From contig NZ_CP136920.1 in NCBI RefSeq assembly GCF_033100135.1, positions 4,211,001 to 4,275,000 on the forward strand: a DNA stretch of 64,000 nucleotides, written 5' to 3'. Positions 5,618-14,874 of the stretch are shown piece after piece (the stretch's first letter is position 1; each line of letters opens with the position of its first letter). This stretch comes from Rubellicoccus peritrichatus (GTDB taxonomy: Bacteria > Verrucomicrobiota > Verrucomicrobiia > Opitutales > Cerasicoccaceae). Position numbers and translations under genes: made by a program. The notes beneath the pieces were generated by a model, which saw only the letters and a program-made list of their open reading frames with translations, ran no database searches and was not told the DNA's origin.

Positions 5618-6541
5618 TCAACTCATCTTCCGAAATTCAGTGGGTGATTGACCGGTGATTCGCTTGAATGAGCGGTTGAACTGAGAGATAGACTCGAAGC
5701 CAGTCTCAAAGGCAATTTCGCTCACACGCAAATGTGGGTTTTGGAGTAGATGTTTGGCTTTTTCCACCCGAACTCGGGACAGGTAATCCGTAAATGTAAT
5801 CCCAGTGGCTTCTTTGAAAAGTTTGCAGAAATGCCGGGTGCTGGCATTGACCGCCCGGGCGGCATCATCAAGCGACAACTGCTCATGGTATCGTTCCTGG
5901 ATATATTTTTTGGCATTGGACACAAGCACGGGATCTGCCTCATTTTCCTCAACCGCAATGCTGTTACTGATGGTGGCCAGATGCTCAGCAAAGGTGGATA
6001 ACAGGGTGATCATGGCCTCGTATTGCACACGATCAAAAACTTTGGTCTGGAAATAGGCCTCTTCCAGCAACTTTAAATTCACTTCCGAACCCCATTTCAA
6101 CAACTGCTGAGTCGTTCGGGAAAACTCTTCTTTGTTTGGCTGATGCAACAGGATTTGCCCGGTCTGGAGAAAAGCGATCAGTTTATCTCCCACCCGCACC
6201 GGTACCGCCGTATCGCAAAGTCCGGCAAAGCAATGCAGGCTCTTGGGTTCAAGCCCGGCCTCCTGCTCCAACTGTGCCTGCATTCTAAGACAGTTGGCGC
6301 AGCCCGCATTGGTCCGTGCCATAATCACACAGAAAGGATTCTCACCCTTCGCTCCCGCCAGAGCATTTTCAAACGATTGAACAGGGCGAATAGCCAATGG
6401 CAACCCAGTTGCCCTGGTGAATGCCCGCTGGTAGTCCTGAAATAAAGCAGACTCCGTCAAACGCTCAACCGCCTGTCGGCTTTCCTCGGCCTCCGGCTTG
6501 GTTTCAACCGCCTTAGGCAATTCTAACGCTTTAGTGGGCAT
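5618..6541 (-). CDS. PocR-domain AraC-family transcriptional regulator
   Basis: A 307-residue protein. Residues about 30-195 form a PocR-type sensory domain with the conserved cysteine pattern (CANCLRMQ, then CFAGLCDTAVPV and FLQTGQI). Residues about 205-307 are an AraC DNA-binding domain with two helix-turn-helix units (LSLDDAARAVNASTRHFCKLF and LRVSEIAFETGFESISQFNRSF). PocR domains are thought to bind small ligands, possibly with cysteine-held metal; the ligand is unknown here. The gene is divergent from the cbb3 oxidase cluster. A 21-bp direct repeat array in the spacer fits AraC-type binding sites, so control of the oxidase operon, of itself, or both, is a reasonable inference. Confidence 0.92.
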   Translation of the reverse strand: MPTKALELPKAVETKPEAEESRQAVERLTESALFQDYQRAFTRATGLPLAIRPVQSFENALAGAKGENPFCVIMARTNAGCANCLRMQAQLEQEAGLEPKSLHCFAGLCDTAVPVRVGDKLIAFLQTGQILLHQPNKEEFSRTTQQLLKWGSEVNLKLLEEAYFQTKVFDRVQYEAMITLLSTFAEHLATISNSIAVEENEADPVLVSNAKKYIQERYHEQLSLDDAARAVNASTRHFCKLFKEATGITFTDYLSRVRVEKAKHLLQNPHLRVSEIAFETGFESISQFNRSFKRITGQSPTEFRKMS

Positions 6542-6918
6542 TCTCTAATAAATAAAAGACGTGATTCCCTATTATTCCACGCTTATCCGCAATGATTCAA
6601 AGGAAATTTGTAAATAGTGCCCAAGACAAAGCATATGGGCCTTCATAAGCCCATACATTGGATTCAATATACAGCATATCGGACCACATATGCCCTATAT
6701 GGAATCATATATGAAGCATATTTGATCGCATATGGAACATACTCCACTCTTTGACCATCTAACAAACGACAGCCAGAGTGGAAAACACGGCCTAAGCTCG
6801 CCCTCAAAACATAGGCCAAACATCGCGCATTCTGCCTGAAGCATCCTTTGCGTAATATGCGCAGGGTTGGTCAGTATATGCGGAGACAAGATTGGCTGCT
6901 TTATGAGACAATGGCCTC
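6542..6918. other. Divergent intergenic region upstream of the oxidase cluster
   Basis: This 377-bp spacer separates the minus-strand AraC gene from the plus-strand oxidase cluster. It holds the 21-bp repeat array (6629-6734) and a second pair of ATATGC cores (6855 and 6876). I see no convincing FNR/ANR-type TTGAT-N4-ATCAA palindrome and no convincing coding sequence. A minus-strand open frame here (6695-6889) has no recognisable protein character. Confidence 0.7.
6629..6734. repeat. Five-copy 21-bp tandem repeat, probable regulator-binding array
   Basis: Units start at 6629, 6651, 6672, 6693 and 6714, with a 1-bp slip after the first. The last three are contiguous 21-mers: 6672-6692, 6693-6713 and 6714-6734. 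The shared pattern is nnnCATATnGGAnCnCATATG, so ATAT cores alternate at 12- and 9-bp steps. A partial sixth unit fades out near 6746. Two further ATATGC cores at 6855 and 6876, also 21 bp apart, lie closer to the next gene. The 21-bp period equals two helical turns and is typical of direct-repeat sites of AraC-family proteins; the adjacent gene encodes one. Confidence 0.8.
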
Positions 6919-7416
6919 ATGAATGAACGTCTCGTTAGCTACTTAAAAGACAACCGTGATCAGATTCTTGAAAACTGGATTACGGAGGCCGATCTCCCCT
7001 TGCCCCAAACTGCACCCTCAAACAATGGATGCCGAGGAACTGTGCCCCTTGCTTTTCTGGAAAGCACATTTGATCGTATTATAGGCAGACTGGAAGGACG
7101 CCCCTGCAATTGTCCCAAGGAGGACAAAGAGGACAACGGCCCGGAAATCCATCTGGATGATATCCTCAACGTAACCTGCGCCTGCAAGAGCCGACGCTTT
7201 GGCGGGCGGGTTTGTCTGGAACTCCATGAGTCCGGACTGCGTGCCTTTATGAGTGTGTTCAATGACACATGGGACACGGAAGGCGAATTCAGCAAGCTCG
7301 ATCGAGAATGCAACGCCGACCTGATTAATCACGCTCTCGCCTGGAACTTTGGTCAGGAGATATCCAACTGCCAGCACCGACATGAGCGTCCGGACTGCCC
7401 TTTTGTTTTAAAATGA
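6919..7416 (+). CDS. Cys-rich protein with RsbRD-like N-terminus, leads the cbb3 cluster
   Basis: A 165-residue soluble protein of unknown function. The start (LVSYLKDNRDQILENWI) resembles the helical RsbRD N-terminal sensor fold found on stress regulators and kinases. The middle and end hold many cysteines: a GC pair at about residue 35, CNC near 64, CAC near 90, and single Cys near 100, 130, 152 and 160. The pattern suggests metal, Fe-S or thiol redox sensing, but no family motif is recognised. Its stop codon overlaps the ATG of the ccoNO frame (ATGA at 7413), so it is probably cotranscribed and translationally coupled with the oxidase. Confidence 0.6.
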   Translation: MNERLVSYLKDNRDQILENWITEADLPLPQTAPSNNGCRGTVPLAFLESTFDRIIGRLEGRPCNCPKEDKEDNGPEIHLDDILNVTCACKSRRFGGRVCLELHESGLRAFMSVFNDTWDTEGEFSKLDRECNADLINHALAWNFGQEISNCQHRHERPDCPFVLK

Positions 7417-9965
7417 GACCCAATCAAGAAGACCCACATGGAGATCCTCCTGCTAACCGTATTTCTCAGTCTGCTTCTAGCGGGTCTGTTTCTGCTACTG
7501 TTCCTGAAGGACAGACGCTCAGAGACATTCAGCAGCCCGGAACAGGAATCACTACGCCCGTTCGAGGCGGAAACACCAGTGAAGGACAAGAGAAAGTAGC
7601 CAGCGGCGGCAAAAAAGTCACCATCGAATACGATGACCAGTGCGTGCGCTGGTTCATGGTCGCCTCAGTCATCTGGTCTCTGGTCGGACTCGGAGCCGGA
7701 GTGCTCATCGCTTCGCAGTTGAACTTCTGGCGGCTCAACTTTGACCTGTCATGGCTGACTTTTGGTAGGCTCCGTCCGCTCCATACCAATGCGGCAATCT
7801 TCGCCTTCGTGGGCAACATGATGTTTGCCGGAGTTTATTACTCCACACAAAGGCTCTGCCGCTGCCGACTCGCGTCTCCCCTGCTGACCAAGATTCACTT
7901 TTGGGGATGGCAAGGTATCATCGTCCTGGCGGCGATTACTCTGCCTCTCGGTTATAGCCGTGGTAAAGAGTATGCAGAATTGATCTGGCCGATCAATATC
8001 CTCGTTGCCGTTATCTGGCTCGTGTTTGCAGCCAACTTCTTCTGGACGCTCATGCGGCGGAATGAAAAATCCCTCTACGTCGCCATCTGGTTTTACATCG
8101 CAACCATCGTCACGGTGACGATGCTATACGTCGTCAATCACCTCTCGCTGCCAACCAGCCTCCTTCACAGCTATCCAATCTTTGGCGGAGTTCAGGATGC
8201 ATTGGTCCAGTGGTGGTATGGACACAACGCCGTGGCCTTCTTTTTGACGACACCAATCCTTGGGATCATGTATTACTTTGTCCCCAAGGCGGCCAACCGC
8301 CCGGTTTACTCTTATCGCCTTTCGGTCATCCACTTCTGGTCGCTCGTTTTCATCTACATCTGGGCCGGCCCACACCACCTGCTCAACACCGCACTCCCTG
8401 GCTGGCTGCAATCTCTTGGCATGCTGTTCAGCCTGATGCTCTGGGCACCCTCGTGGGGTGGCATGCTCAATGGTCTCCTTACTCTGCGTGGGGCATGGGA
8501 TAAGCTCCGCACCGATCCGGTGATCAAGTTCTTCGCCGCAGGTGTTACCTTTTATGGTATGGCCACCTTTGAAGGACCATTGATGTCGATCAAATCCGTG
8601 AACGCGCTTTCCCACTACACCGACTGGACGATTGGACACGTCCATGGCGGCACCTTGGGATGGAACGGCTTTATGGCAGCAGGCATGTTCTACTGGCTCG
8701 CACCGAGACTCTGGGGCACAAAGCTCTACTCCCAGTCACTGGCAAACATGCACTTCTGGTTGGGCATGGTTGGCATCCTGCTCTACGTCGCGTCGATGTG
8801 GGTATCAGGCATTACTCAGGGGCTGATGCTCAACGCAACCACAGAAAACGGCACCATTCTCGCCTATCCTAATTTCTTGGATACACTCCAGGCAATCCGT
8901 CCGATGATGCTCTTCCGCCTGATTGGTGGAACGCTCTACCTGATCGGCTTTTTCATGATGGCTTACAACCTCTGGAAGACTGCCCGCAGCGGGGCACCAG
9001 TGAATGGTACAATCCAAATCACCTCGGCAATGGACGAGATGGCTGGTCGCGAACGCAACGGCTTTCGTGGATATCTCAATGCTCCGGTCATCTATGCTTT
9101 CCTGGTCATCACATCCGGTTGCGTCATGATTTTTGGATCCGATATCATATTCCTCATCGGTGTTTTCCTGACAGGGCTTTTCACAATTCTTGCAATTGCA
9201 CATTTCCAGGTCAGTGGTGCAAAATGGTCACAGTGGCATGACGATCTGCTTAAACATGGTTTCACTTTCACCGTGCTGACCATTATCGCGGCGGCCATCG
9301 GTGGAGCCATACAGATCATCCCGACTGTCACAATGCAACGGGCCGGAAACATTGAAGGCCGCCTACAAATACCATACACACCACTTGAGCTCACAGGGCG
9401 TGACATCTACATAAGTGAAGGGTGCTATAACTGTCACTCACAGATGATTCGAACGATGGTCCCCGATGTCCTCCGCTATGGAGACTACTCACGCCTGGGA
9501 GAATCAATTTACAATCATCCGTTCCAATGGGGATCAAAACGCACCGGTCCTGACCTCGCCCGTGAAGGTGGCAAGCGTTCCGACGACTGGCATTTTTATC
9601 ACATGTTGAATCCGCGTGATGTTTCACCTGGTTCCAATATGCCCAACTATCCGTGGCTCTTTGAAAAGGAAGCCAATTCCAAAGCGCTTCCATCAAAAAT
9701 TCACGCCATGCGCATGCTGGGTGTTCCTTATCCCATGGATATATCGGAAGAAGAAATTCAGGCGGAGTATGATGCCCAGGCCAATGAAATCGTCGAACGG
9801 CTGGCCGAGAAAGGTGCCTATACCGAACCAGACAAAGAAATCGTCGCGCTCATTGCCTACCTTCAAAAGCTCGGAGCCTATGAGGACACTACAGAAAAGA
9901 AGGAGTCCGAAGGTGAAGAGCAAACACTGGATTTGTTTAAACCAATAGGAACGGTAAATCCATAA
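7413..9965 (+). CDS. ccoNO: Fused cbb3 cytochrome c oxidase subunits I and II (CcoN-CcoO)
   Basis: An 850-residue fusion. Residues about 80-540 are CcoN, the haem-copper catalytic subunit, with the expected histidine segments (LRPLHTNAAIF, WYGHNAVAFF, GPHHLL and HVHGGTLGWNG). Residues about 545-850 are CcoO: two membrane helices, then one c-type haem site GCYNCHSQM and the GPDLAREGG segment. It reduces O2 to water with high affinity and pumps protons. The only in-frame canonical start before the conserved IEYDDQCVRWF is the ATG at 7413. That gives a roughly 70-residue, Ser/Gly/Pro-rich leader whose DNA also encodes ccoS in another frame. A non-standard start near 7600, or a -1 frameshift out of ccoS, are alternatives. 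Confidence 0.95.
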   Translation: MRPNQEDPHGDPPANRISQSASSGSVSATVPEGQTLRDIQQPGTGITTPVRGGNTSEGQEKVASGGKKVTIEYDDQCVRWFMVASVIWSLVGLGAGVLIASQLNFWRLNFDLSWLTFGRLRPLHTNAAIFAFVGNMMFAGVYYSTQRLCRCRLASPLLTKIHFWGWQGIIVLAAITLPLGYSRGKEYAELIWPINILVAVIWLVFAANFFWTLMRRNEKSLYVAIWFYIATIVTVTMLYVVNHLSLPTSLLHSYPIFGGVQDALVQWWYGHNAVAFFLTTPILGIMYYFVPKAANRPVYSYRLSVIHFWSLVFIYIWAGPHHLLNTALPGWLQSLGMLFSLMLWAPSWGGMLNGLLTLRGAWDKLRTDPVIKFFAAGVTFYGMATFEGPLMSIKSVNALSHYTDWTIGHVHGGTLGWNGFMAAGMFYWLAPRLWGTKLYSQSLANMHFWLGMVGILLYVASMWVSGITQGLMLNATTENGTILAYPNFLDTLQAIRPMMLFRLIGGTLYLIGFFMMAYNLWKTARSGAPVNGTIQITSAMDEMAGRERNGFRGYLNAPVIYAFLVITSGCVMIFGSDIIFLIGVFLTGLFTILAIAHFQVSGAKWSQWHDDLLKHGFTFTVLTIIAAAIGGAIQIIPTVTMQRAGNIEGRLQIPYTPLELTGRDIYISEGCYNCHSQMIRTMVPDVLRYGDYSRLGESIYNHPFQWGSKRTGPDLAREGGKRSDDWHFYHMLNPRDVSPGSNMPNYPWLFEKEANSKALPSKIHAMRMLGVPYPMDISEEEIQAEYDAQANEIVERLAEKGAYTEPDKEIVALIAYLQKLGAYEDTTEKKESEGEEQTLDLFKPIGTVNP
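7438..7599 (+). CDS. ccoS: cbb3 oxidase maturation protein CcoS, nested in the ccoNO frame
   Basis: Frame 1 from the ATG at 7438 to the TAG at 7597-7599 encodes 53 residues: MEILLLTVFLSLLLAGLFLL, then LFLKDRRSETFSSPEQES and an acidic/basic tail. One N-terminal membrane helix followed by a short SPE-containing tail is the architecture of CcoS/FixS, needed for cofactor insertion into cbb3 oxidase. The position directly before the CcoN body is also normal for ccoS. What is odd is that the gene lies wholly inside the first 65 codons of the annotated-length ccoNO frame. The ribosome-binding site is weak (AAGAAGA a few bases upstream). Identity rests on architecture, size and context. Confidence 0.72.
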   Translation: MEILLLTVFLSLLLAGLFLLLFLKDRRSETFSSPEQESLRPFEAETPVKDKRK

Positions 9966-10027: not shown

Positions 10028-10219
10028 ATGTTCAAAAGAATTATTTATGACAACTGGACGAACATCGTTCCAATCCTTTCCTTCTGTCTGACCTTTGCTG
10101 TCTTTCTCGGCATTACTGCCCGCGCGCTATTCTTCAAAAAGGATTTCATTAAGCATATGGGACATCTGCCTCTTGAGGACGATGCCCCAACTCAAACCGA
10201 GCTTGCTGACCATGAGTAA
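10028..10219 (+). CDS. ccoQ: cbb3 oxidase small subunit CcoQ-like
   Basis: A 63-residue protein with one membrane helix (about residues 13-33, IVPILSFCLTFAVFLGITARALFF) and a short charged tail, the CcoQ/FixQ shape. It lies 62 bp after ccoNO and its last 8 bases overlap the start of ccoP. It probably stabilises the assembled oxidase. Sequence conservation in this family is low, so the name rests on size, topology and position. Confidence 0.8.
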   Translation: MFKRIIYDNWTNIVPILSFCLTFAVFLGITARALFFKKDFIKHMGHLPLEDDAPTQTELADHE

Positions 10220-10790
10220 TCACGACGAAGACAACACTAAGTTCGAAGACGAAGTCCTGCCCGAAGGTGTTGTGCTGAAAGAGCACAGCTACGATGGCAT
10301 ACGTGAGTATGACCAACGCCTGCCGCGCTGGTGGCTTTTAACCCTCTATGGTGCCATCATTTTCTCGGGACTGTACTGGCTCGTCGATCACAACTATATG
10401 AAGGCGCAATCGACGACCGAACAAGTGGAGCAGGAACTGTCGGAGATCGCCACAATCAAGCTGGCCAACTCAATCGACGTAACCGACAACGCCTTATTCT
10501 GGGAGATGAGCGAGAATGCAGCTTTCGTTACAGCTGGTAAGGTCATCTACGATGCCAACTGCACACCATGCCACGGTGCCAATCTTGAAGGCGGCATCGG
10601 CTTCAGTCTTGTCGATGGCGAATGGGTCCACGGTGCTCAGCCTTCCAGCATTTACAACACGATTTACGACGGTGTCCCCGACAAGGGAATGCAAGCCTGG
10701 GGAACACTGCTCGGTCAAAAGCGTATCACAGAAGTCGTCGCCTACGTCCTGAGTAAGAACGATCGTTCGACGATGGAAGCAGGGAAGTAA
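10212..10790 (+). CDS. ccoP: cbb3 oxidase cytochrome c subunit CcoP, single-haem form
   Basis: The start is ATG 10212 (MSNHDEDNTKFEDEV), overlapping the ccoQ stop. The same frame is open further upstream, but that region codes for ccoQ. The product is 192 residues. The N-terminal YDGIREYDQRLPRWW segment and one membrane helix (LLTLYGAIIFSGLYWLV) are diagnostic of CcoP. Only one haem-binding site is present (CTPCH near residue 118), with a distal Met ligand probably in GMQAWG. Classical CcoP has two haem domains, so this is the shorter mono-haem version. It transfers electrons from soluble cytochromes to CcoO and CcoN. Confidence 0.92.
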   Translation: MSNHDEDNTKFEDEVLPEGVVLKEHSYDGIREYDQRLPRWWLLTLYGAIIFSGLYWLVDHNYMKAQSTTEQVEQELSEIATIKLANSIDVTDNALFWEMSENAAFVTAGKVIYDANCTPCHGANLEGGIGFSLVDGEWVHGAQPSSIYNTIYDGVPDKGMQAWGTLLGQKRITEVVAYVLSKNDRSTMEAGK

Positions 10791-10917
10791 GAAGTAAAAA
10801 GAAAGAAGGTAGAAGGTTTTTATACTCAATATTTTTGAATTAGTTATTCATCATTAGAGATTAGTGAGGTCTTCTCACTGCTTACTTCGACCTTCTCACT
10901 TCTTCCCACCCGCAAAG
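10791..10917. other. Purine-rich then pyrimidine-rich spacer, possible hairpin
   Basis: Just after ccoP is a run of GAAG/AGAAGG-type purines (about 10778-10817), and before ccoG a run of CTTCTCACT-type pyrimidines (about 10869-10908). Their sequences are partly complementary, so the transcript could fold into a long imperfect stem between ccoP and ccoG. It may be a processing or attenuation element or a decayed intergenic repeat. Confidence 0.35.
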
Positions 10918-12330
10918 ATGCCCACAGCAACTAAAGCCAGAAAGCGAAAGCCCATTCGGGAATCTGTCACCACAATCAACGATGACGGTTCGCGGCTCTT
11001 TCTACATCCAGCTGATGTAAGCGGACGTTTCACATTATGGCGACGGCTATCAGCCGCCTTACTGATTGGAATCTACGTGTTATTGCCATGGATTCCGATC
11101 AACGGTTACCCTGCAGTGTTTCTTGATGTGATGAACCGGCGTTTTCATCTCTTCGGGCTTACCTTTGCAGCCCAGGACCTCTGGCTTGCCTTCTTTTTCA
11201 TAACGGGCGTTGGGTTTTCTCTCTATGTTGTAACGGCTTTGTTTGGACGTCTCTGGTGCGGCTGGGCCTGCCCTCAAACCGTATTCCTTGAGCATGTCTA
11301 TCGTCGCGTAGAAAGGTGGATAGAGGGCGACCATATGAAGCGCAGGAAACTGGACGCCCACGAATGGGACACGGAAAAGATAATCAAGCGAGTGACCAAA
11401 CATGGTATTTTTATTTTCATCTCGTTGTTGATCGCGCATATTTTTCTCGCCTACTTTATTTCCATTCCGCAGCTCTATAGCTGGATGACTTCAAGCCCCA
11501 CAGAGCATTGGAGCGTCTTCCTTTTTGTCTTTATCGCCAGTGCTATTATTTATTTTAACTTCTCATGGTTTCGCGAACAGCTCTGCCTGGTCATCTGTCC
11601 TTACGGCCGCCTGCAATCAGCGCTAATCGATGATGACTCCATCGTCATCGGCTATGATGAAAAACGTGGTGAACCGCGCGGCCCGGCCAAGCAGGAAGGG
11701 ATCGGCGACTGTATTGATTGCATGCGCTGCGTGCAGGTCTGCCCAACTGGAATCGATATTCGCCAGGGCCTGCAAATCGAATGTATCGGTTGTTCCAATT
11801 GCATTGATGCCTGCGACACCATTATGGATAAACTCGAACGGCCACGTGGACTGGTTCGTTATGACTCGCTCAATGGCTTGGCTGGAAAACGTAAACGTAT
11901 CCTGCGTCCTAGACTCTTTCTTTACGGAGCTCTCATGCTCCTCGGCGCAACCGCCATGACCCTGTCGGCGATGCAATTGCGTAGTGCCAGCATGAATGTG
12001 GTCCGCATGACTGGCGCCCCCTACTTCATAACCGAAGAAAGCCTCCGCAACCAATATCTCGTTCGCGTCATCAATAAAGAAAACTCACCTCAAAGCTTCA
12101 CTGTTCAAGTTGTTGCCGACGACCAATCTTTCACTGCCCAGGGATTCGACGAACCATTGATCGTTGAACCGATGGGCGAAGAGGTCCGCCCCCTTGTCAT
12201 TTCTGTATCTCGTGACGGGTACAACGGAAAGTTTCCCGTCGCGATTAATTTAATGAACGATACCGATGAATTGATCATCAGCCGTGAAGCAGAATTTCTC
12301 GGTCCCGACCCCAAACGCCTAAAGCCATGA
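10918..12330 (+). CDS. ccoG: cbb3 oxidase accessory Fe-S membrane protein CcoG
   Basis: The preferred start is ATG 10918 (MPTATKARKRKPIRES). An upstream in-frame GTG at 10864 would add only an unlikely leader read through the pyrimidine run. The 470-residue protein has five or so membrane helices, the family signature CGWACPQTVFLEHVYRRVERW, and a double ferredoxin-type cluster region (CIDCMRCVQVCPTGID, then CIGCSNCIDACD). The C-terminus is an Ig-like periplasmic domain. CcoG is a copper- and iron-handling factor for cbb3 maturation. Its stop overlaps the next start by ATGA (12327-12330), indicating coupling. Confidence 0.95.
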   Translation: MPTATKARKRKPIRESVTTINDDGSRLFLHPADVSGRFTLWRRLSAALLIGIYVLLPWIPINGYPAVFLDVMNRRFHLFGLTFAAQDLWLAFFFITGVGFSLYVVTALFGRLWCGWACPQTVFLEHVYRRVERWIEGDHMKRRKLDAHEWDTEKIIKRVTKHGIFIFISLLIAHIFLAYFISIPQLYSWMTSSPTEHWSVFLFVFIASAIIYFNFSWFREQLCLVICPYGRLQSALIDDDSIVIGYDEKRGEPRGPAKQEGIGDCIDCMRCVQVCPTGIDIRQGLQIECIGCSNCIDACDTIMDKLERPRGLVRYDSLNGLAGKRKRILRPRLFLYGALMLLGATAMTLSAMQLRSASMNVVRMTGAPYFITEESLRNQYLVRVINKENSPQSFTVQVVADDQSFTAQGFDEPLIVEPMGEEVRPLVISVSRDGYNGKFPVAINLMNDTDELIISREAEFLGPDPKRLKP

Positions 12331-12485
12331 CTGAGCAAAAGAAAAAAAGAAACTGGCGGCTCACACTATGGATTCCTGTGGTGCTTGCCTTCGTTTTAGT
12401 CATTGTTGCCTGGAGCATCCTGATCAACATTGCCGCCAATAACCCGACAGAGAGAATTCCAATTGCCAATAGCGAGGAGCCCTGA
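12327..12485 (+). CDS. Small single-TM protein in the ccoH position
   Basis: An ATG at 12327 overlapping the ccoG stop opens a 52-residue frame ending at TGA 12483-12485. It has a basic N-terminus (TEQKKKRNWR), one strong membrane helix (LTLWIPVVLAFVLVIVAWSI) and a short polar tail. It occupies the slot of ccoH between ccoG and ccoI but is only about a third of the usual CcoH length and lacks its periplasmic domain. It could be a minimal CcoH or an unrelated assembly peptide. The tight spacing (1 bp to ccoI) supports that it is translated. Confidence 0.65.
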   Translation: MTEQKKKRNWRLTLWIPVVLAFVLVIVAWSILINIAANNPTERIPIANSEEP

Positions 12486-12486
12486 A

Positions 12487-14874
12487 ATGGCCACCAAGAC
12501 GGAAGACAGAATCGCCTGCGAACACTGCGGCACGCTTTTCCTTCCAAAGGGCGATGATATATTCTGCTGCCAGGGCTGCGCCTATGTTTCACAATTGCTC
12601 CATGATGGCGGCTTCGATCGTTTCTATGAATTAAAGGGTGAAAAAGCAGTTCCTCCTGTCGGATCAAGGGTCTTTCAAGACGCAGACACCACATGGCTGG
12701 TCGAAACAGTAAAGCACGCCGAAGCTTCCAGCAAAACCGAGATAATCAAAGCGTCATTCGGAGTGCAGGGAATCTCGTGTGTCGGTTGTGTCTGGTTGAT
12801 TGAGGCAATCTTCAATAATCATCCAGGATCAGTATCAATTCACATAGACCCACGCTGTGGTGGCATACGCCTGACCTGGTTGAAGAATGGGTTTAATGCC
12901 GTAACCTTTTCAAACGAACTCCAAAAACTCGGCTATAGACTGCAGCCGAAAGAAGAGAAAAATGAAGCAGAAGGAGCATCCAAACGATTGAGCCACCGTA
13001 TAGGGCTTTGCGGTTTCTTTCTACTCAACACCATGCTCTTCACTCTGCCGGGTTATCTCGGAATGGCGGGTGATTTTTTTCTCGCACCGCTTTTTCAAAT
13101 CCTTGGCGCATTCTTTGCAACACTTAGCATGATCGCAGGAGGCAGTTACTTTTTTGCACGTGCATGGACAGCCTTACGTCACAAGGTTCTGCATATCGAT
13201 TTCCCAATCGCGCTCGGCTTGGGCGCTGCCTATGTGGGTTCACTTATTGGCTGGTTGACCGGACACACCAGTCTAATCTACTTCGATTTTGTTGCCACTT
13301 TTGTATTTCTTATGCTGCTTGGACGCTGGCTGCAAGAATACGCGATTGAAAAAAACCGGAGTCATTTGGATCGACGCAATCCAGGCCCCAGGCAAGTCAC
13401 ACTACTTGGTGGTTCTGATGATGGACGCGAGATTTCGGCAGAATCCATTTGTGAAGCACAATCCTATTCAGTTTCCCCAGGAGAAATCAATCCGGTCAGC
13501 GCCCGTTTGTTAGATCATGAAGCGTCTCTAAGCTTGGAATGGATTAACGGCGAAGCCGAACCAGTCACTTCGAAAAAAGGAAAAATAGTTCCTGCCGGAG
13601 CGATCAACGTCGGACTCAACAGCACTGCACTCAAAGCAGAGGAATCATGGAATGAAAGTTTACTTGCAAAACTACTTCAGCGACCGGCAGATAACTTCAG
13701 CAATCAACGCCTTCAGAAAATTCTGGGAACATACATCGCTGTGGTCTTGACTCTCGCAACAATAGGCGGAGCTGCCTGGTGGCTTCTTGCAGACAAGCCC
13801 ATTGTTGCGATTCAAGTCTTTGTCTCAGTTCTTATTGTATCATGCCCTTGCGCTTTGGGTGTCGCCCTACCTATGGCTGACGAATTTTGTAACTCAGCAC
13901 TACGCCGCGCTGGACTCTTCATCAAGTCAAACGACATTTGGGAACGCCTGCGTCATGTCAGTACCATTGTTTTTGATAAGACCGGAACCCTGACGCTTGA
14001 GATACCGCGTCTGACGAACCCGAAGATTATTGAATCACTTCCTGTGGACTCCATTAATGCTCTGTATAAACTCGTGCAGCGAAATCTTCATCCACTGGCG
14101 CGTTCGTTGCGCGAGACAATACTAAGTAGGATACCCTCACGCTGCCTGCAGGATGAAGAAACGAGATTCCCGATCCATGAACAGATAGGTCAAGGTGTTT
14201 ACTTCACTGATGAAGCGGGTAATCAATGGACATTGGGTAAACCGGAGTGGATGGCTAAGGAAGCAAATACCAGACCGTGTGACACAAAAAACCCGACAAC
14301 AGTCCTTCGACAAAATGGAATTCATATCGCCCAGTTTTTCTTCAACGAAGATGTTCGCGATGATGCTGTTGACGCTATTGATGCATTCAAAGAAAACAAC
14401 TTCGATGTTACCATATTGAGTGGTGACGCAACTGAGCATGTAAGCCGTGTCGCTTCAGCATTGAACATCGATTCAGCTCATACCCGCAGCCGTTGCACTC
14501 CAAACGATAAAGCTGAATGGATTCATCGCAATGCTCCGGATGCAGCCTTAATGATCGGTGACGGTGCCAATGACAGCCTGGCTTTTGATACGGCAATCTG
14601 CCGTGGAACTCCAGTAATAGATCGGAGTATCCTTGAAGCATCGTCCGATTTTTTCTTCTTCGGGCGCAGCCTGCGTTGCCTTCCTCTCCTGTTCAATGTT
14701 GCAAAAGCACGACGGCGAACGGTTGCTTTGATCTTTGCTCTGGCGGTTGCTTACAACATCGGTGCTGTTTCCCTTTGCCTCGCTGGAGCCATGCATCCGC
14801 TGCTCGCCGCTATTCTTATGCCACTTAGTTCGATAGTCACCTTGCTTGTCGCGTGGCTTGGTTTGGGCAAATAG
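12487..14874 (+). CDS. ccoI: Copper-translocating P-type ATPase CcoI/FixI
   Basis: The start is ATG 12487, just after the small upstream gene; the frame is open further upstream, but that region encodes the ccoH-like protein. The 795-residue product has an N-terminal zinc-ribbon-like segment (CEHCGTLF and CCQGC), a heavy-metal-associated domain (GISCVGCVWLIEAIF), membrane helices, the CPC transport motif (SCPCALGVALPM), the phosphorylation loop DKTGTLT and the hinge GDGANDS. It exports Cu(I) for insertion into the CcoN haem-copper centre. The residues between the membrane pairs are somewhat divergent from CopA, which fits the CcoI/FixI branch. It is the last gene of the oxidase operon. Confidence 0.95.
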   Translation: MATKTEDRIACEHCGTLFLPKGDDIFCCQGCAYVSQLLHDGGFDRFYELKGEKAVPPVGSRVFQDADTTWLVETVKHAEASSKTEIIKASFGVQGISCVGCVWLIEAIFNNHPGSVSIHIDPRCGGIRLTWLKNGFNAVTFSNELQKLGYRLQPKEEKNEAEGASKRLSHRIGLCGFFLLNTMLFTLPGYLGMAGDFFLAPLFQILGAFFATLSMIAGGSYFFARAWTALRHKVLHIDFPIALGLGAAYVGSLIGWLTGHTSLIYFDFVATFVFLMLLGRWLQEYAIEKNRSHLDRRNPGPRQVTLLGGSDDGREISAESICEAQSYSVSPGEINPVSARLLDHEASLSLEWINGEAEPVTSKKGKIVPAGAINVGLNSTALKAEESWNESLLAKLLQRPADNFSNQRLQKILGTYIAVVLTLATIGGAAWWLLADKPIVAIQVFVSVLIVSCPCALGVALPMADEFCNSALRRAGLFIKSNDIWERLRHVSTIVFDKTGTLTLEIPRLTNPKIIESLPVDSINALYKLVQRNLHPLARSLRETILSRIPSRCLQDEETRFPIHEQIGQGVYFTDEAGNQWTLGKPEWMAKEANTRPCDTKNPTTVLRQNGIHIAQFFFNEDVRDDAVDAIDAFKENNFDVTILSGDATEHVSRVASALNIDSAHTRSRCTPNDKAEWIHRNAPDAALMIGDGANDSLAFDTAICRGTPVIDRSILEASSDFFFFGRSLRCLPLLFNVAKARRRTVALIFALAVAYNIGAVSLCLAGAMHPLLAAILMPLSSIVTLLVAWLGLGK

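Follow-up and report, generated by a model that had tools for sequence, protein, structure and literature searches.

The intergenic stretch from 6542 to 6918 of the window (the whole stretch of DNA analysed, 64,000 nucleotides of the 5.8 Mb, single-contig genome of Rubellicoccus peritrichatus) separates a PocR-AraC regulator gene on the reverse strand from a cbb3 oxidase operon on the forward strand. We consider it fairly probable that this gap harbors two elements of different origin: a conserved PocR-AraC operator at 6855-6888, and a phased array at 6665-6742 that would have been acquired later and is specific to the lineage. The coordinates of the features are given in Table 1.

Table 1. 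Features of the pocR-cbb3 region (positions in the window).
Feature	Position	Strand	Remarks
PocR-AraC regulator	5618..6541	-	PF10114 + HTH_18 (PF12833); divergent from cbb3 operon
Imperfect hairpin, 11 pairs	6632..6657	-	Out of register with array; terminator-like score, upstream of pocR
In-register array	6665..6742		Four 21-bp units; palindrome-like unit CATATnnGATCnnATATG; cores alternate 9/12 bp
Candidate PocR-AraC operator ATATGCGCAGGGTTGGTCAGTATATGCGGAGACA	6855..6888	+	34 bp; two direct half-sites, 21 bp apart
Putative -35-like TGCGGA	6879..6884	+	Within downstream half-site
Putative -10-like TATGAG	6902..6907	+	17 bp past TGCGGA, 11 bases ahead of ATG
Cys-rich 165-aa protein	6919..7416	+	Without Pfam match; first gene after candidate operator
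Fused ccoN-ccoO, cbb3 oxidase	7413..9965	+	COX1 + FixO
ccoP-like	10215..10790	+	FixP_N + cytochrome c; start position approximate
ccoG-like	10864..12330	+	
ccoI-like copper P-type ATPase	12430..14874	+	Start position approximate

Salmonella PocR responds to 1,2-propanediol and acts on the pdu and cob genes. The regulator studied here has the same combination of a PocR sensory domain and an AraC Helix-Turn-Helix domain, but it is linked to a cbb3 oxidase and not to propanediol use. Its orthologs are 75-78% identical in five genomes of the same family, belonging to two other genera, and roughly 40-76% identical elsewhere in the order, and the close matches include Cerasicoccus and Coraliomargarita records. 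The pocR ortholog adjoins ccoNO in about 25 genomes. Divergent synteny of pocR and the cbb3 genes extends through the same family and beyond, and in the nearer relatives, where this arrangement prevails, the gap between them usually measures about 100-190 bp and lacks an array. These results support the view that the regulator is tied to the cbb3 operon across the order, in agreement with the regulator-oxidase link proposed in an initial annotation of this DNA. The same annotation knew of no described PocR control of a cbb3 oxidase, and the literature that we searched likewise yielded no paper naming both. In the genomes of family f14 (L012, L058, L059, L062, L064 and L065) pocR lies ahead of ccoNO in the same direction and not divergently. 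The fusion of ccoN and ccoO encodes 850 aa, and in many relatives the match covers nearly the whole fusion. Most of the divergent clusters linked to pocR have the Cys-rich protein at the head of their cbb3 genes; in some clusters it was not found (G030). Finally, five cysteines of the PocR domain (C71, C81, C84, C104 and C109) are invariant in 11 cbb3-linked orthologs, and it is possible that they form part of a metal or redox sensor.

The pair at 6855/6876 reads ATATGCGCAG-N11-ATATGCGGAGACA and is located immediately before the cbb3 operon. Besides the window copy, 11 orthologous loci have this element; in Coraliomargarita-type genomes the corresponding element is AATATGCGCAGTCTTATGCGCAATATGCTGAGACA, with cores at 0, 12 and 21. 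A sequence-only operator model based on ten copies, all of them from other genomes with that of R. peritrichatus left out, scored the window copy at 37.4 bits. Run over 372 genomes of the order, this model gave matches at E < 1e-4 in twelve genomes, a single site in each, and 12 out of 12 such sites were beside pocR. The weaker matches (E not < 1e-4) included two more pocR-linked sites (G161 and G094) and two on another contig than the pocR match (G143, and G294, whose assembly is incomplete), as well as matches at chance level. The operator pattern occurs only once in the R. peritrichatus genome, and the recognition helices of the regulator are near-invariant among the 11 orthologs compared. 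Together, the single model site per genome, the unique pattern and the near-invariant helices indicate that 6855-6888 is likely the PocR-AraC operator. The same conclusion follows from the conservation of the element, the position of the model sites beside pocR and the failure of the array to match the model: when the model was run over the arrays, a meaningful score was obtained at 6855-6888 only, and there was no match inside 6665-6742. The initial annotation had proposed that AraC-type sites with half-sites about 21 bp apart serve as operator of this regulator; this is supported for the conserved 6855-6888 site and not for the multi-copy array. The modest pair is the functional candidate in the gap.

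Direct-repeat operators of the AraC family of the araI1-I2 type are class II activator sites. The 6855-6888 element resembles them in having direct half-sites 21 bp apart, conserved beside an AraC-family gene that is divergent from its target. Its downstream half-site may in addition overlap a -35-like box. The element differs from them in its half-site (ATATGCGnAG), in the PocR sensor domain of the regulator and in the target, a cbb3 oxidase operon. The combination TGCGGA-N17-TATGAG occurs in the window and in some orthologs, and the -10 box is degenerate in others. According to the mechanism that we propose, a PocR-AraC dimer would occupy the two half-sites, the downstream one lying over the operon's putative -35 promoter box as in class II AraC activation. 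The regulator would thereby switch the Cys-protein/ccoNO-P-G-I operon.

The second element has a different structure. Its ATAT/ATAC cores start at 6667, 6676, 6688, 6697, 6709, 6718, 6730 and 6739, a strict alternation of 9 and 12 bp with a period of 21 bp. Lag 21 was the best among lags 6-40, with a score of 39/63 versus a maximum of 35 when the array itself was dinucleotide-shuffled 2000 times (0/2000 reached the observed score), and an 8-core template gave 6 in the array versus at most 4 in the shuffles. The unit is an 18-bp dyad whose symmetry was above that of 200/200 shuffles. The 12 and 9 bp spacing of ATAT cores that had been noticed at the outset is confirmed. Five units of 21 bp had been described at 6629-6734; four of them are in register (6665-6742), but the cores of the first unit (6633, 6645 and 6653, with spacings of 12, 8 and 14) are off the 21-bp register and fall within an imperfect hairpin. 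The 6855/6876 pair does have the 21-bp spacing ascribed to it, but its motif is different from that of the array, which is not made of such half-sites. The units are too diverged for the array to be recognized by Tandem Repeats Finder or by a plain repeat search.

The array is absent from all orthologous clusters examined. At least 11 of these have the same regulator, with recognition helices almost unchanged, and clusters of this kind without the repeats are what the initial annotation had named as refuting its proposal. Relatives with the pocR-araC/cbb3 arrangement have kept the 6855-6888 element and lack the array. Across the order, 53 other genomes yielded no comparable array of the CATATnnGATCnnATATG type. 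In the window, the stretch from pocR to the candidate operator is longer by about 265 bases and includes the array, and a DNA search for another copy of this extra intergenic DNA found none. The array is lineage-specific, and it would be a later addition within these extra bases.

Arrays of this general kind are not confined to the window. The R. peritrichatus genome was sampled as evenly spaced 800 kb, and array counts beyond this sample are extrapolated. The sample contained 17 intergenic periodic loci; 10 of these had a period of 21-23 bp, versus 1.5 expected under uniform lags, and one had a period of 44 bp. These 11 in 800 kb extrapolate to roughly 80 phased arrays per genome. Examples are TTGGGCGGTTCCCAA (L218 and L222), TACCTCGCCGAGGTA (L258) and TTCCC-N-GGGAA (L232). 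Phased arrays occupy convergent, tandem and divergent gaps, so the class as a whole does not consist of promoter elements. A histogram of distances between palindromes alone gave a weak peak with a rounding artefact, and is therefore not relied on as independent proof of phasing. Two sister genera have such arrays as well, clearly so in G005 and G007 and possibly in G002. A scan of 400 kb from four further members of the order (G001, G043, G040 and G013) found none, and neither did one of 50 kb from E. coli. Among loci of other phyla 21 bp is likewise one of the commoner lags, less sharply so. The arms within a unit agree better than the arms between units at L258, L046 and L248, which indicates that they change together; this is not the case for the units of the window array.

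Several of these loci deserve separate mention. Four of the 17 periodic loci are copies of one 18-bp element. A single small mobile element, present in four copies, probably accounts for the 18-bp TTGATC arrays of the R. peritrichatus genome (L223:17484, L226:8761, L235:18187 and L260:19338), which have similar flanks (ATTCATGCCACCGATTATA...). A 22-bp array, TACGTCGCCGACGTA, whose unit arms change together, is located at L046:9255-9385, just 3' of a PocR-AraC paralog. In G005, the near-perfect palindromes TACGTCCATGGACGTA (L248:10900-11010, 23 bp period) and AAGCGTCGCCGACGCTT (L257:12000-12110, 22 bp period) are arrays of the same type in a sister genus.

The occurrence of arrays in every gene orientation, together with the lineage specificity and the degenerate units of the window array, would also fit a neutral repeat product, i.e. 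a REP- or minisatellite-like expansion to which no protein binds. REP/BIME clusters consist of GTAG- and CGTC-tagged palindromes, and Opitutus terrae has large numbers of the GTAG kind (PMC3733652). Like them, the array is palindromic, clustered, intergenic and present in several copies per genome, and the R. peritrichatus genome has Y1 transposase genes. Unlike REP/BIME, however, the dyads recur at a regular period of 21-23 bp, a preference unexpected from random expansion, and their sequence varies from place to place. Moreover, the units of 6665-6742 have no GTAG or CGTC tag at their ends, and the surroundings of the Y1 (RAYT) genes contained no arrays and 0/4 tested motifs. An origin of the arrays from REPs or their transposase was accordingly rejected, and neutral expansion in general, although possible, seems to us unlikely.

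Besides the window, the CATATnnGATCnnATATG dyad with the same spacing is found at exactly two other intergenic places: C1:4305927, where a heptosyltransferase gene follows, and C1:5147193, where the gene that follows encodes an nspC-like decarboxylase. The motif search suggested in the initial annotation thus retrieved the array consensus elsewhere in the genome and not in front of orthologous clusters. The three arrays have nothing in common in their flanks, which were compared for shared mobile sequences, beyond the motif. The position of all three upstream of genes, in a genome with many AraC paralogs, might suggest an operator array of another dimeric or AraC-type regulator that governs pocR and the heptosyltransferase and nspC-like genes. 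This is improbable, since the three genes have no apparent functional link, such sites were not found in relatives, and the arrays resemble one flavour of the broader class.

A related array of ATATGC units is present at C1:4892140. Here, as in the three same-type arrays, a gene follows the array and the ATATGC-rich strand is directed toward it, an arrangement expected of operators; this orientation, spotted post hoc, keeps alive at low probability the view that the array is itself a PocR-AraC operator. A pattern search had suggested that the array consists of copies of the Coraliomargarita operator, and the C1:5147193 array matches the core pattern of those operators with 0 mismatches, but the full matrix did not uphold this; what remains is a weak link through ATATGC cores and 12/9 spacing. 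A tandem PocR-AraC operator, acting in cooperative pocR autoregulation or oxidase control, would agree with the location upstream of pocR, the ATATGC cores on the pocR-facing strand, the AraC-like 21-bp period with its 12/9 sub-spacing and the core arrangement and match just mentioned, but is the least probable explanation, given the absence from orthologous clusters, a best operator-matrix score equalled by 11% of random intergenic windows, i.e. background, and the similar phased arrays between convergent genes and far from pocR. Similar arrays are scattered over many unrelated intergenic gaps, some of them flanked by convergent genes, and for this reason the cooperative, switch-like control of the oxidase once proposed for the array is not indicated.

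We therefore prefer the reading with a conserved operator and a separate, later array. The array would belong to a class of intergenic short-dyad arrays phased at 21-23 bp, or two helical turns. Such phasing suggests a protein, as yet putative and not specifically PocR-AraC, along one face of the DNA, and any effect of the array on pocR or the oxidase would be secondary. We advance with more reserve, as a rather unlikely idea, that Cerasicoccus-type Verrucomicrobia possess an undescribed element in the form of dozens of intergenic dyad arrays with this two-turn period, varying in sequence between arrays, with arms that co-change in some, and perhaps serving as platforms for DNA-wrapping or architectural proteins. 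If confirmed genome-wide, the phased arrays would constitute an unexplained class of intergenic elements with a helical-period constraint. The operator, with one site per genome and its linkage to pocR, provides a concrete candidate regulator for the cbb3 oxidase in Verrucomicrobia.
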